Assembly: GCF_000710615.1 (NCBI RefSeq)
Contig: NZ_JDTH01000006.1
Coordinates: 124,001 to 188,000 of the forward strand
Length of the DNA: 64,000 nt
Source of the DNA: Haladaptatus cibarius D43
Lineage (GTDB): Archaea > Halobacteriota > Halobacteria > Halobacteriales > Haladaptataceae
Direction: 5' to 3'
Part shown: piece after piece, positions 48,320-54,857 of the stretch
Layout: each line of letters starts with the position of its first letter
Position numbering within the stretch: the stretch's first letter is position 1
Program-made: the position numbers and the translations under genes
Notes under the pieces: model-generated
What the model was told of the DNA's origin: nothing
Seen by the model: the letters and a program-made list of their open reading frames with translations, nothing else
Database searches by the model: none

Positions 48320-50179
48320 ATGGATACCACAGACCAGACTCGCACGGCCCGGCAGGCCGTCGAGCGTCTTGCCGACCCGGTCGTCGCGTTCGACACCGAC
48401 TGGCAAGTCACCTATCTGAACGACCCGGCCCGCGACATCTTCGGATTCGGTATCGGCGAGCAACTGCCCGAAGCACTGCCGACGACGGCAGTCGAGACGA
48501 TGCGCGAACGCTGTCAGGCGTCGGTTGCGGATGGCGACTCCCGCTCTTTCTGGCTGTCGCTCGGCGACGCACAGTACGAAGCGACGACGCATCCCGACGA
48601 AGACGGGGTAACCCTCGTGTTCCGGGAATGCGACGTGTTGGAGGATGTGGCCGCGGAACTCCAACTGAAAGAGCGCGCCATCAACGAGGCACCGGTCGGC
48701 ATCACCATCGCCGACGCGCAACTGGACGACGAACCGCTCATCTACATCAACGAGGCGTTCGAGGAGTTGACGGGCTACGATTCCGAAGACATTCTCGGGC
48801 AGAACTGCCGATTCCTGCAGGGAGTGGATTCCGACCCCGACGCGGTTGCGGAAATGCGAACCGCAATCGACAACGAGGAACCCGTTTCGGTCGAACTATG
48901 CAACTACCGAAAGGACGGCGAGAAGTTCTGGAACCGGGTCGATATTGCGCCGATTCGGGACGACGCGGGCGAGGTCACCCACTACTGCGGGTTCCAAACG
49001 GACATCACAGAGCGGAAGAACGCCGAGTTCGCGGCCCGCAGACGGGCAAAAGAGCGCGAACACTTGCTCGAACGAATCGAGGGACTGCTTGGCGACGTGA
49101 CCAGCGCGGTGGTCGAAGCACCGACCAGAACGGCAATCGAAACGGCCGTCTGCGAGCGCGTGTCGAGCGTCGAACCGTACAACTTCGCGTGGGTTGGCGA
49201 GCGAGATATTAGAACCGACAGCGTCGAAGTACGGGCCGTCGCAGGCGACTGCGACCCGAAACCCGAACATCCGCTCGTCATCGACGCGCTCGAAACCGGC
49301 AAACTGCAGGTAGACGAACTCGACGTCGAAGGCTGTGAGGCAGTCGCCGCGCTCCCCATCGCCTACGACGATACGGAGTACGGCGTTCTCGTTATCTGCG
49401 CGACGGAACAGGATGCCTTCGACGAACGGGAACAGGTCGTCCTTCGGTCACTGGGCCGAGCAATCGCCAGCGCCATCAACGCCCGGGAGACGCGCAGAAT
49501 CCTCATCGCCGACAGCGTGGTCGAGGCCGAATTTGCCTTCCGGAGCGCCGACCTCTTTTTCGTTGACATCGCAAAACAGACGAATGCGGACATCGAGTAT
49601 CTGCAATCGACCAACCGGGACGACGGCTCCGTCGTTTCTTTCTTCTCGATTCGCGGTGCGTCCCCCGATGACGTGATTGCCGCCGTCGAGGACAGAGAAA
49701 GCGTCACCGAGGCCCGGTTGGTCGCCGAGCGCGATGGAGAAGCCCTCTTCGAGTTCGTCCTCCCGGCGGGAACGCTCGTCTCCACCATGTCGGAGTACGG
49801 CGGCAAGACGCAAGCGATTTCGGCGACGCCAGACGATTCCCGCGTCGTCGTCGAGTTCCCGCAAGAGGCGGACGTTCGCGGCCTCGTCGAGCGCCTGAAA
49901 AAATCGTATCCCGGAACCGAACTGCTGGCGTACCGCCACCGCGAGCGACCTGCGAAGACGAGACAGGACTTCATCGAAAATCTCACCGAAAAGCTCACCG
50001 AACGACAGTTGACCGCGCTCCAAACCGCCTACGTCAGCGGTTTCTTCGACTGGCCGCGGCCCGTCACCGGCGAGGAACTCGCCGAGTCGATGCAAATCTC
50101 GCGTTCGACATTCCACGAGCACCTGCGGGCCGCGGAGCGAAAACTCTGTGGCGAGTTCTTCGGCGACGAAGTCGCTTGA
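48320..50179 (+). CDS. Bat-type regulator with PAS, LOV, GAF and HTH domains
   Basis: A 619-residue multi-domain regulator. An N-terminal PAS (1-110) is followed by a second PAS with GQNCRFLQG around Cys163, which is the LOV flavin-binding signature with the reactive Cys. Then come a GAF domain (about 220-380), a Bat-type domain (about 385-550) and a C-terminal HTH, TERQLTALQTAYVSGFFDW and ELAESMQISRSTFHEHLR. The Bat protein of Halobacterium controls bacteriorhodopsin genes; no opsin gene is in this window. A LOV domain implies blue-light or redox sensing; this is inference from the motif. Confidence 0.9.
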   Translation: MDTTDQTRTARQAVERLADPVVAFDTDWQVTYLNDPARDIFGFGIGEQLPEALPTTAVETMRERCQASVADGDSRSFWLSLGDAQYEATTHPDEDGVTLVFRECDVLEDVAAELQLKERAINEAPVGITIADAQLDDEPLIYINEAFEELTGYDSEDILGQNCRFLQGVDSDPDAVAEMRTAIDNEEPVSVELCNYRKDGEKFWNRVDIAPIRDDAGEVTHYCGFQTDITERKNAEFAARRRAKEREHLLERIEGLLGDVTSAVVEAPTRTAIETAVCERVSSVEPYNFAWVGERDIRTDSVEVRAVAGDCDPKPEHPLVIDALETGKLQVDELDVEGCEAVAALPIAYDDTEYGVLVICATEQDAFDEREQVVLRSLGRAIASAINARETRRILIADSVVEAEFAFRSADLFFVDIAKQTNADIEYLQSTNRDDGSVVSFFSIRGASPDDVIAAVEDRESVTEARLVAERDGEALFEFVLPAGTLVSTMSEYGGKTQAISATPDDSRVVVEFPQEADVRGLVERLKKSYPGTELLAYRHRERPAKTRQDFIENLTEKLTERQLTALQTAYVSGFFDWPRPVTGEELAESMQISRSTFHEHLRAAERKLCGEFFGDEVA

Positions 50180-50651: not shown

Positions 50652-52907
50652 ATGACCGCGACGGCAAAACGGTTCCTCGTCGCTGTCGTCGCCGTCCTAC
50701 TGATCGTCGGAACGAGCAGTCCGTTCGTCGCAGTCGGGAACGCCGACAGCGCAGAGAGCGCATCAACGGCAACCGACCTCTCTCAACTGCAGGACGCACC
50801 GAAGCCGGAGTATCTCTCGCAGACCGCGCCGGTAGACGGATTACGCTCGTTCGACGGGCCGCCGAGAATGAGCATTAGCAGTCAACAACTCGGCAATCAG
50901 ACGACGCAAGCAGGTAACGAGACCACAGTCGGGAACGCGACACAGGGCAACGAAAGCCGACAAGCCGCGGTTCGAGGTGCGCTCCAAGGCGTCGAAGACG
51001 CCATGGACGCCGGAGTTGACGTGAGTTCCGCGGAGCGAGAGGCCGCAGTTACCGGAGCAGTTGGTGGTGCGCTCCAAAGCCCGGATGCGAGCACCGAACA
51101 ACTCGAAGCGTCCGCACAGGGGGCCGCCTTCGGTGCCCTCACCGGCGCGTCAAATGCGAGTGAAAACGCGACTAGCGGAAACTTCACCGACGGAGCTATC
51201 GGAACGACGACCACCTCCGACAACGCGAGTTCGGCCTCGCGCGTGGCGCTGAAGCAGAATCAAATAAACCAGAACGTCAACATCAACGTCATCCAGAATG
51301 CCGCGTTCGGTGCGGCCGCCGGAGCGATCAACCAGAACGCAAACGTCAATGTCGTTCAAAACGCCGCACAGGGGGCGGCACAAGGTGCGGCGCAGGAAGG
51401 AATCAACCAGAACGCGAACGTAAACATCGTTCAGAATGCCGCACTCGGTGCGGCTGACGGTGGTGTTCAAGGGAGCATCGCAAATCAGAATACCAACGTG
51501 AACGTCGTCCAGAATGCCGCGCTTGGAGCGGCTTCCGGAGCGATCAATCAGAACGCGAACGTCAACGTCGTCCAGAACGCCGCGTTCGGCGCGAGTGGTG
51601 GCGCGGTCTCAGCCGCAAACCAGAACGCCAACGTGAACGTCATCCAGAACGCCGCGCAGGGTGCGGCACAGGGCGCACTTCAGGAGGCAATCAACCAGAA
51701 CGCCAACGTGAACGTCGTTCAGAATGCCGCGCTCGGTGCGGCCGCAGGAGCAGTTCAGAGCGCCGTCAATCAGAACGTCAACGCAAACGTCGTGCAGAAC
51801 GCCGCACAGGGTGCGGCCGCTGGGGCGATTAATCAGAACGCCAACGTCAACGTGATTCAGAACGCCGCCCTCGGCGCGGCGAGTGGTGCGGTACAGGCCG
51901 CGGCGGTCAACCAGAACGCGAACGTCAACGTCGTCCAGAACGCCGCGCAGGGTGCGGCACAGGGTGGCGTCGAAGCTGGCACTGCGAACCAGAACGTGAA
52001 CGTTAACGTCATCCAAAATGCCGCACTCGGGGCCGCTGGCGGAGCCATACAAGGTGCAGTCAACCAGAACGTCAATATCAACGTCATCCTCAATGCGGCG
52101 CTCGGTGGAGCACAGGGCGCTGTGGAAGGTGCGGTGAACCAGAACGTCAACATCAACGTCATTCTCAACGCCGCCGCCGGTGCGGCGCAGGGTGGTGTGG
52201 GCGTCGGGGCGACGAATCAGAACGTCAATATCAACGTCATCCTCAACGCCGCACTCGGCGGAGCACAGGGTGCTGTTCAGGGTGCCGTAAACCAGAACGT
52301 CAACATCAACGTCATCCTCAACGCCGCACAGGGCGCGGCGTTGGGCGCTGGACAGGCCGGTGCGGTGAATCAGAACGTCAACATCAACGTCATTCTCAAT
52401 GCGGCGCTCGGAGCCGCGCAGGGTGGCGTCGGCTCGGCCGCAGTCAACCAGAACGTCAACATCAACGTCATCCTCAATGCGGTGCTGGGCAGTGCCGAGG
52501 GTGCTGTCGGTGCGGCCGCGGACAACCCGAACGTGTCACCGCGCGAAGTCCGAGCCGCCGCGGATGGCGGGGCGACCGGTGCGATAGAGACGGCGTCGGT
52601 CAATCAGAACGTCAACATCAACGTTATTCAGAACATCGCGGCGAACGGTGCACAGCAGGGAGTCAACGCCGCAGCGACTGGCGCAAGCATCCAAGCGATT
52701 CAGAACGCCGCGGAACAAGCCGCAGAGGTCGATGGTGCTGATGGAACGGCAGAAGAGCCACAGCCGACCGAACCGGAGCCTGAGCCAACCGAACCCGAAC
52801 CGACCGAGCCACAGCCGACCGAACCGGAGCCTGAGCCAACCGAACCCGAACCGGAGCCGACCGAACCAGAACCACAACCGACTGAACCAGCCAACGAATC
52901 GGCCTGA
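50652..52907 (+). CDS. Secreted Asn/Gln-rich tandem-repeat protein (candidate fibre or solenoid)
   Basis: A 751-residue protein. It starts with a Sec-type signal, MTATAKRFLVAVVAVLLIVG. A Ser/Thr/Asn-rich segment follows with Ala/Gly pieces (AAVRGALQGVEDAM, EAAVTGAVGGALQ). From residue 203 to about 690 there are about 19 units of 21-27 residues, each opening NQNxNxNVIxNAA and ending in Ala/Gly/Gln-rich GAAxGAxxxAV. Unit 18 is degenerate. The end (704-751) is Pro/Glu/Thr-rich. The alternating Asn/hydrophobic strand and the Asn/Gln ladder suit a beta-solenoid or amyloid-like fibre on the cell surface. No enzymatic motif or anchor is visible. I do not recognise a family. Confidence 0.85.
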   Translation: MTATAKRFLVAVVAVLLIVGTSSPFVAVGNADSAESASTATDLSQLQDAPKPEYLSQTAPVDGLRSFDGPPRMSISSQQLGNQTTQAGNETTVGNATQGNESRQAAVRGALQGVEDAMDAGVDVSSAEREAAVTGAVGGALQSPDASTEQLEASAQGAAFGALTGASNASENATSGNFTDGAIGTTTTSDNASSASRVALKQNQINQNVNINVIQNAAFGAAAGAINQNANVNVVQNAAQGAAQGAAQEGINQNANVNIVQNAALGAADGGVQGSIANQNTNVNVVQNAALGAASGAINQNANVNVVQNAAFGASGGAVSAANQNANVNVIQNAAQGAAQGALQEAINQNANVNVVQNAALGAAAGAVQSAVNQNVNANVVQNAAQGAAAGAINQNANVNVIQNAALGAASGAVQAAAVNQNANVNVVQNAAQGAAQGGVEAGTANQNVNVNVIQNAALGAAGGAIQGAVNQNVNINVILNAALGGAQGAVEGAVNQNVNINVILNAAAGAAQGGVGVGATNQNVNINVILNAALGGAQGAVQGAVNQNVNINVILNAAQGAALGAGQAGAVNQNVNINVILNAALGAAQGGVGSAAVNQNVNINVILNAVLGSAEGAVGAAADNPNVSPREVRAAADGGATGAIETASVNQNVNINVIQNIAANGAQQGVNAAATGASIQAIQNAAEQAAEVDGADGTAEEPQPTEPEPEPTEPEPTEPQPTEPEPEPTEPEPEPTEPEPQPTEPANESA
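51258..52720 (+). repeat. Tandem repeat array inside the secreted repeat protein
   Basis: About 19 in-frame units of 63-81 bp. Units 1-11 mostly read NANVNVVQNAA; units 12-17 read NVNINVILNAA; the last unit reverts to IQN. Copies vary at synonymous sites, so the array is old enough to have drifted, but the second block looks more recently expanded. Confidence 0.9.
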
Positions 52908-53055: not shown

Positions 53056-53075
53056 CAGTCGTGAACGGTTCTGCT

Positions 53076-54857
53076 ATGCCCGGCGTAACTGGTGGTACTG
53101 TCAGCAGTCGTGCTCTCGACGAGATGATAGACACGATGGACGACGAATCGTGGTATGGCACTGCCGAACGCTCGACTGGCGACTGGCGAATCGGACTCGT
53201 CCATCACGGCGAGCGAGACGCACGCGGATGGACAACGTGGCGAGACGGCGACCGAATCGGCGTTCTTCACGGCGTGATTTCGAATCGCGAAGAACTGGGG
53301 TTGACGGCCGACGAAATCTTCGAGCGAGTGCTCGCCGACCCAGACCGCACCCTTCCGAAACTCAGCGGCCCGTTTTTGCTCGCGGTGGCAGATGGAAGTT
53401 CTACCATCGTCGCAACCGACAAAATTGGCACGCGACCGTGTTACTATTCGACGGTTCACGGCTTCCTGTTCGGAAGCGAACTGAAATCGCTGGTCACGCA
53501 ACTCCGCGAACCGCGAGTGGACGAGCGAGCGGTGAGCGACATGCTCCATATGGGCTACGTGTTCGGAAAGAAAACCCTCGTCTCGGACATTCACTCTCTG
53601 CGTCCCGCCTCGTACATCCACTACGAGGGCGGCAATCTCCGGACGAAGCGATACTGGGAACCCGACTTCGGCATCGCGCCACAGGAGGGCTACGTCGATG
53701 AGGCGGTTCGGCGCTACCGCCGGGTTGTCGGCAACGTTGCAGACACCATCGACGGACGAGCCGGTGTCTGGCTTTCGGGCGGACTCGACAGTAGAACGCT
53801 CGCCGCCGCGCTGAAAGATGAAATTGGCTCCGTTCAGACGTTCACTTACGACAACTCCGCGACGCAGGAAGACCGAATCGGTGCGGAGCGCGTCGCCGAC
53901 TCGCTCGAACTACCCAACCAGTTCCACGACTACTCCGCCGGGGAGTTCGTGAACGCCATCGAACGCGGCGTGGACATCATGGACGGGATGTTGCAGTGGT
54001 CGTTTTTCGTCAACCTCGCACCCTCGCTGAACAGCGTTTCCGGGCAGGTTGACGTGCTGTTCGAAGGAAGCAGTCAAGGCGAATTTTTCGGCGACGTGAT
54101 GTATCGGTCGTATTTGACCGGAAAACAACCTGTTGATGCCCTCTCTGCCCTGAAGAGTCAGCTGCCCCCCGCTGACGTTCAAACCCTCCTCTCCGCGGAA
54201 ATTTCCCCGAAACAATCGTTGGGCCGTGTGGTCGAACGAAGCACGCAACCCCGGCGAGAACACAGAACCCTCGACGCACTCTGGGAAATCTTCGCGGACT
54301 CGCATTTCCGCTCGAATCGCCTCTATCGAAGTCAGGCCGGAACTCGCGTCCCGTTCGCAGACGGCGAGTTCATGAACCACGTCGCGCGAATGCCATACAA
54401 TCGGTACCGAATCGGGTCGATTCCCGGCACTCGCGGCACGGTTCCGTCCGCCGTCGCGCCGCTCAAACTCGAAGTTGCCCGTCGAGTCGCTGGCCCTGCC
54501 GCAAAAGTCCCGTACAATCGGACGAAGCGCCCGCCCACCTCGCCTCTCACACTTCACGCCGCGGGATTCGTCGCGGACAACGTGAAAAAGCGAGTGCTCG
54601 GTCAAACCACGTCGCAGATGGGAACGTGGTACCGAACGAACAACGACATGCGAGCCTTCATCGACGACCTCCTCGACGATGCGTGTGCCCGTGACATCTT
54701 CGATTCGGACGGGGTGCGTGACCTCCAACGCGAGCATCTCGACGAGCGCGGTGACTATATCAAACCGATTTCGGCGCTGACGACTGTCGAACTCTGGTTA
54801 CAGAAGCACCTCGACGCACTCCGTCCGTCCGCGGGCCAGCGCGTTCCAGTTCGATAG
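53076..54857 (+). CDS. Asparagine-synthetase-like amidoligase lacking glutaminase Cys
   Basis: A 593-residue protein with the two-domain layout of class II glutamine-dependent asparagine synthetases: an N-terminal Ntn domain (GVLHGVISNREEL, GPFLLAVADG, ATDKIGTRPCYY, FLFGSELKSLV) and a C-terminal PP-loop domain, VWLSGGLDSRTLAAAL (234-239). The conserved Cys after Met1 that acts on glutamine is Pro here (MPGVTGG), so it cannot hydrolyse glutamine in the usual way. It may use ammonia or another amine donor, as in natural-product amidoligases. A TATA box sets ATG 53076. It is a stand-alone gene near surface-related functions. Confidence 0.85.
   Translation: MPGVTGGTVSSRALDEMIDTMDDESWYGTAERSTGDWRIGLVHHGERDARGWTTWRDGDRIGVLHGVISNREELGLTADEIFERVLADPDRTLPKLSGPFLLAVADGSSTIVATDKIGTRPCYYSTVHGFLFGSELKSLVTQLREPRVDERAVSDMLHMGYVFGKKTLVSDIHSLRPASYIHYEGGNLRTKRYWEPDFGIAPQEGYVDEAVRRYRRVVGNVADTIDGRAGVWLSGGLDSRTLAAALKDEIGSVQTFTYDNSATQEDRIGAERVADSLELPNQFHDYSAGEFVNAIERGVDIMDGMLQWSFFVNLAPSLNSVSGQVDVLFEGSSQGEFFGDVMYRSYLTGKQPVDALSALKSQLPPADVQTLLSAEISPKQSLGRVVERSTQPRREHRTLDALWEIFADSHFRSNRLYRSQAGTRVPFADGEFMNHVARMPYNRYRIGSIPGTRGTVPSAVAPLKLEVARRVAGPAAKVPYNRTKRPPTSPLTLHAAGFVADNVKKRVLGQTTSQMGTWYRTNNDMRAFIDDLLDDACARDIFDSDGVRDLQREHLDERGDYIKPISALTTVELWLQKHLDALRPSAGQRVPVR

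Follow-up and report, generated by a model that had tools for sequence, protein, structure and literature searches.

The window analysed here is a 64,000-nucleotide stretch of the Haladaptatus cibarius D43 genome (contig NZ_JDTH01000006.1), and an open reading frame (ORF) at 50652-52907 on its + strand encodes a 751-aa protein dominated by a tandem array of asparagine-rich units. This protein is a specialised, plasmid-borne offshoot, confined to Haladaptatus, of a widespread and unnamed haloarchaeal family of surface-repeat proteins. It is likely to be a secreted solenoid rod, and the best explanation of the whole, which we put forward tentatively, is a rod coated with Asn and Gln that would play a structural or adhesive part outside the cell.

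The array spans aa 206-676 (51267..52679, +) and is recognized by TRF at the DNA level as a series of diverged repeats with 72-81% matches. The motif NQN[AVT]N[VIA]N[VI] marks 18 units, each running on into an AAxGAAxGA half, with spacings of 21, 24, 25 or 26 residues and a single gap of 52. This gap holds one regular unit and, after it, a degenerate and helix-like unit of 26 residues (aa 625-650; 52524..52601, +; NPNVSPREVRAAADGGATGAIETASV), bringing the array to 19 units. An earlier sequence-only reading had proposed about 19 units of 21-27 residues, each pairing a strand with an Ala/Gly-rich half; the count and the pairing are borne out, while the unit length is corrected to 21-26 residues. 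Five Asn positions are fixed in 18/18 units: four alternate along the strand, and the fifth directly precedes AA. D+E make up 2% of the repeat region and K+R 0.4%, the median D+E of the ORFs in the window being 18%.

On either side of the array stand the signal peptide and the Pro/Glu/Thr tail that the same reading had described, both plain in the sequence. The Sec-type signal peptide region covers aa about 1-31 (50652..50745, +; MTATAKRFLVAVVAVLLIVGTSSPFVAVGNA), with a putative cleavage site. It is followed by an N-terminal region of degenerate helix-like GA-repeats (aa about 95-190; 50934..51221, +), which AlphaFold2 models as three helices with pLDDT mostly 60-79 and which carries several N-glycosylation sequons; eight sequons fall in aa 1-205 versus one in the array. 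The Pro/Glu/Gln/Thr tail (EPxPT; aa 701-751; 52752..52904, +) has an NES sequon at its end and, as read from its sequence, no membrane anchor. The annotated start of the Haladaptatus caseinilyticus ortholog lies at the point matching the N terminus of the window protein.

The ORF is a real gene under purifying selection and is not the result of chance or low-complexity drift. Comparison of its repeats with those of the ortholog in Haladaptatus genome G008, which is 85% identical to the window gene, gave dS 0.97, dN 0.046 and dN/dS 0.047; 94/94 Asn are kept, 20 of their codons having changed silently (AAC/AAT). Units compared with one another inside the window gene also differ mostly by silent changes (dS 1.28, dN 0.19). 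Since the units differ mostly silently and Asn is kept despite codon changes, their likeness reflects selection and not recent duplication alone.

The family to which the protein belongs comprises two kinds of unit, the window-style NQNxNxNV unit (N-type) and the unit QxQx[AV]x[VI]xQIQxAAxGAAxGA[LV] (Q-type). A Q-type paralog of 831 aa is encoded in the window's own genome (G000:C2:354173-355780) on a chromosomal-looking contig of 1.9 Mb; the N-type matches it with E 7.9e-35, and hhalign relates the two types with probability 99.5 and E 1e-22. They share a homologous 22-23 residue unit with an AAxGAAxGA half, a long tandem array and secretion. They differ in that Q-type units have interior Gln (QxQ, QIQ) where N-type units often have V, I or L, and in their charged and variable exterior; Q-type proteins are also widespread, chromosomal in the window's own genome, and often anchored and equipped with extra domains. 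A Q-type profile (A4) found relatives in 110/391 genomes of the class and 36/86 genera, while in a wider sample of the phylum matches were confined to members of the order, plus one marginal match outside it. Many Q-type proteins, although not all, run on into DUF7282 (PF23951) or TSP3_bac (PF18884), Thr-rich stalks or anchors, the anchor being a C-terminal hydrophobic stretch with a basic end. In one sub-class (L021, L022, L029 and L032) TSP3-like Asp-rich repeats replace DUF7282, as confirmed by Pfam for L021 and L032. Because Q-type homologs are joined to DUF7282, TSP3, stalks and anchors, the family is one of uncharacterised haloarchaeal cell-surface proteins; this context and the signal-peptide-like start of the window protein agree with the secretion proposed earlier. 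In the window protein itself DUF7282, TSP3 and a C-terminal membrane anchor are all absent by sequence and Pfam. As the earlier reading had supposed in knowing no named family with this motif, the repeat had no significant match in Pfam, NCBIfam or PDB sequence searches.

Weak Pfam and NCBIfam matches to Peptidase_M15_3, CbiN (in the signal region) and Gly-zipper were below cut-off or unsupported and were set aside as compositional, as was a match of Trypan_PARP (Pfam PARP) to the Pro/Glu tail, far below cut-off. The Q-type paralog of the window's own genome (L002) adjoins an HTH-like gene, and its C-terminal domain matched nothing above a Pfam cut-off. A Q-type frame in genome G001 (L016:1366-2955) ends early, at 530 aa, with an end unlike that of its relatives, which suggests a frameshift or a pseudogene.

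The N-type is, among the relatives found, limited to Haladaptatus. It occurs in 5/9 genomes of the genus searched (G000, G002 with two copies, G005, G006 and G008) and was not found in the other four; a degenerate DNA pattern for NQN[AV]N[VI]NV matched 1/341 genomes of the class, namely the window's own. In every case with a complete named replicon to consult, the N-type gene lies on a plasmid, including the H. caseinilyticus ortholog, annotated as a hypothetical protein, whose gene order is that of the window. The number of regular units varies among relatives from 12 to 18. A viral or phage origin was rejected, as the N-type had no match in phage records and the Q-type none in viral contigs. 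One strain of Haladaptatus halobius has two N-type copies on two plasmids (L008 and L009); the L009 frame is missing several internal units and the signal peptide, and may be a decayed copy.

Comparison of the two unit types indicates where the asparagines point. With the first Ala of AAxGAAxGA numbered 0, Q-type units have Gln at −12, −10, −4 and −2 and A/V/I at −8 and −6, whereas positions −11, −9, −7, −5, 2, 6 and 10 are variable and 13-47% charged; in some of these counts G3, G7, Q−4 and Q−2 are anchors and thus fixed by construction. In an anchor-free alignment of Q-type orthologs, numerous Gly pairs four residues apart are likewise invariant, as are numerous Gln. In the N-type, 96-100% of units have Asn at −11, −9, −7, −5 and −1, with mostly Gln/Asn at 6 and 10; charge at −11, −9, −7 and −5 has fallen from 13-47% to 0%, and the Gln found at −12 and −4 of the Q-type have mostly become V or I. 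Because the Asn positions are the variable, often charged positions of the Q-type, homology and variability place the Asn ladder on the outer face and not in a curli-like core, whichever fold is chosen. At position 2, where the Q-type often has Arg or Gln, 65% of N-type units carry Leu or Phe, and this row is possibly one of lateral contacts.

Several features of the Ala/Gly half make a solenoid of strand plus helix the somewhat favoured fold. At position −7 of regular Q-type units S/T/N/D/G are found in 91%, versus 30-42% at other exposed strand positions, which fits a helix N-cap. Variability recurs with a period close to 95 degrees in the Ala/Gly half, whereas the strand half has one of 180 degrees. 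The degenerate units resemble the beginnings of helices, both in Q-type relatives (e.g. PAEKVEAACRGAASGAI, TPERRQAAVRGAVAAS and SEKTRAAAEGGAEGSL) and in the window (VSPREVRAAADGGATGAIE).

We infer the helix, the solenoid, its assembly and its role in a model whereby a secreted, folded repeat protein would make one solenoid turn with each 21-26 residue unit. Each unit would contribute a short beta strand around NQNxN and then an Ala/Gly-rich segment; this is most probably an alpha helix, which would pack tightly onto the next unit through its Gly and Ala. In the N-type nearly all outward positions would be Asn or Gln and one outward row mostly Leu/Phe, giving a rod of about 19 turns that is coated with amides, carries hardly any charge and ends in an acidic Pro/Glu/Thr tail. 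Since charge is screened in near-saturated brine, such an amide surface should favour self-association or the binding of a regular polymer or mineral there. An amide-coated rod with a hydrophobic row should associate in molar salt, making a structural or adhesive extracellular role the likeliest, the chief alternative being that it binds a polymer or mineral. As to export, the N-type proteins L006, L007 and L008 (named records) have a twin-arginine-like start (LKRRTILSGLIATVG), and those of the window and G008 are Sec-like. If the twin-arginine (Tat) route were used, the array would be folded before export, which, on a reading of the motif alone, speaks against unfolded secretion of the curli type.

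Three results weigh against this model. An AlphaFold2 model of eight units, computed with 33 rows of register-shifted copies, builds each unit from two strands, with no helix (pLDDT 74, pTM 0.78); in the Ala/Gly half the hydrophobic moments increase at 90 as well as at 180 degrees, favouring neither; and Q-type genes have no conserved neighbours across genera that point to a role. The search for such neighbours, suggested earlier as a check, thus found none in common. A two-strand beta arch is a serious competitor as the fold, if a less probable one. The whole array modelled with five sequences reached pLDDT 57, and Foldseek searches of the PDB with the AlphaFold2 models gave nothing significant. 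The solenoid considered plausible at the outset appears in the models as a beta-solenoid of moderate confidence, a result that is suspect for near-identical repeats and is given limited weight.

The explanation that survives best beside the amide-coated rod, while still rather doubtful, holds that a two-strand beta-arch solenoid, curli-like in architecture and not in descent, stacks unit upon unit, both inside each subunit and from one subunit to the next, to build a functional amyloid fibre of cross-beta type in the haloarchaeal matrix. The AlphaFold2 models are indeed beta solenoids, and the first two PDB matches of the eight-unit model in Foldseek were FapC (E 0.24) and CsgA (E 0.33), both non-significant. 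FapC, a Pseudomonas functional amyloid, thus heads the matches to the model, yet it has no significant match by sequence or fold. Curlin repeats contain two N-$-Psi-$-Psi-$-Q motifs joined by XGXX (PMC10192328). The likeness lies in secretion, in tandem units of about 23 residues (the 21-26 found here fit the curlin length of 23 ± 5; PMC10192328), and in a strand alternating amide and small hydrophobic residues, the QxAxVxQ of the Q-type resembling the curlin signature. However, the test for two motifs failed, as there is a single similar strand (Q-$-[AV]-$-[VI]-$-Q in the Q-type, with the last Q turned into V in the N-type). Where curlin has its second motif, both types have AAxGAAxGA, which is probably helical and looks so in the degenerate copies; the Asn lie outside and not in a core, the family is archaeal, and some relatives have a Tat-like signal. 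The curlin profile PF07012 had no match in the window protein at E<=1 or in Q-type members at E<=5, its one weak match elsewhere in the genome (E 2.2) being below cut-off, and CsgG (PF03783) is absent from the window's own genome and found in control genomes. Membership in the curli/CsgA family is therefore rejected on profile, motif and CsgG. The sequence-only reading was right that the motif is not a curlin repeat, and its proposal of a curli-like logic fails on the exposed Asn face and on these same results. Biofilms of Haloferax volcanii bind Congo red and thioflavin T (PMC4180959), which would suit an amyloid; the same paper states that Congo red may stain polysaccharide too and names a sole amyloid candidate, HVO_1403, which is homologous to a Sulfolobus factor that is amyloidogenic (PMC4180959). 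No experiment links this staining to the Q-type or N-type family.

It is unlikely that the array merely binds, without self-assembly, its outward Asn rows templating a regular polymer (a polysaccharide or S-layer glycan) or a crystal. Ice-nucleation and insect antifreeze solenoids likewise display rows of a single residue type on the outside of a rod, and the Thr/Tyr arrays of the former are thought to organise water (PMC9418140). Their ladders are of Thr/Tyr and their coils shorter (16 residues for the ice-nucleation protein), as against Asn and 21-26 residues here. The fixation of the Asn positions in all regular units, under strong selection, would fit such binding. Against it stand the Leu/Phe row, which suggests protein contacts, and the nearby genes, which include no cognate ligand or enzyme; we also know of no crystal-template role of Asn. 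Least probable of all is that the protein acts passively as a spacer or stalk, an extended and largely inert part of the coat that has little by way of a defined fold and is amide-rich only for solubility. Low charge, the Pro/Glu/Thr tail and the variable number of regular units (12-18) might suggest this, but the kept hydrophobic/polar alternation, the invariant Gly/Ala spacing and dN/dS 0.05 argue for a defined fold.

The amide-coated rod also recalls leucine-rich repeats and other alpha-beta solenoids in the logic of strand plus helix within 22-24 residues and in outward strand positions forming a ladder. The units contain no LxxLxLxxNxL pattern and have no Pfam match to such repeats; the best PDB profile match, the leucine-rich repeat protein 4u08, is non-significant (E 0.13). 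The Methanospirillum sheath protein SH, shown by cryoET to form an amyloid-like archaeal sheath (PMC10593813), is similarly an archaeal extracellular assembly with beta arches. No match was found between SH and the family of the window protein, and no comparable tandem 22-mer is reported for SH.

More than a quarter of the Halobacteria genomes sampled contain a family that has no profile, name or structure. The N-type is a natural experiment in which a scaffold has exchanged its charged exterior for Asn/Gln, within organisms that as a rule have highly acidic proteins. It also supplies a defined protein with which to look into haloarchaeal biofilm fibres, where dye staining is reported and no established molecular identity was found. 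A speculative extension, which we consider improbable, is that the units form a new solenoid fold, each 22 residues giving a short strand and a glycine-zipper helix, and that the N-type builds all-amide extracellular fibres or sheets in saturated brine; were this true, the N-type would be a matrix protein that withstands salt and, at the molecular level, a candidate for haloarchaeal matrix fibres. The array is in any case a hard one for structure predictors, its repeats being near-identical.

Upstream of the repeat gene lies a regulator of the bacterio-opsin-activator type (48320..50179, +), with PAS/GAF/BAT/HTH_10 domain matches and synteny in H. caseinilyticus, which possibly regulates it. 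Directly downstream is a gene for an asparagine-synthase-related protein (53061..54857, +), adjacent in H. caseinilyticus too. It is not among the ORFs listed around two other N-type genes and is therefore probably unrelated; an operon supplying asparagine for the Asn-rich protein was rejected on the same ground. Beside another N-type gene, a neighbouring ORF of 494 aa (L006:5672-7156) looks secreted and has a Lys/His-rich tail (KKRDGRDGHDDGKKCKKHKKKHHD...), which is odd for a halophile and possibly metal-binding.
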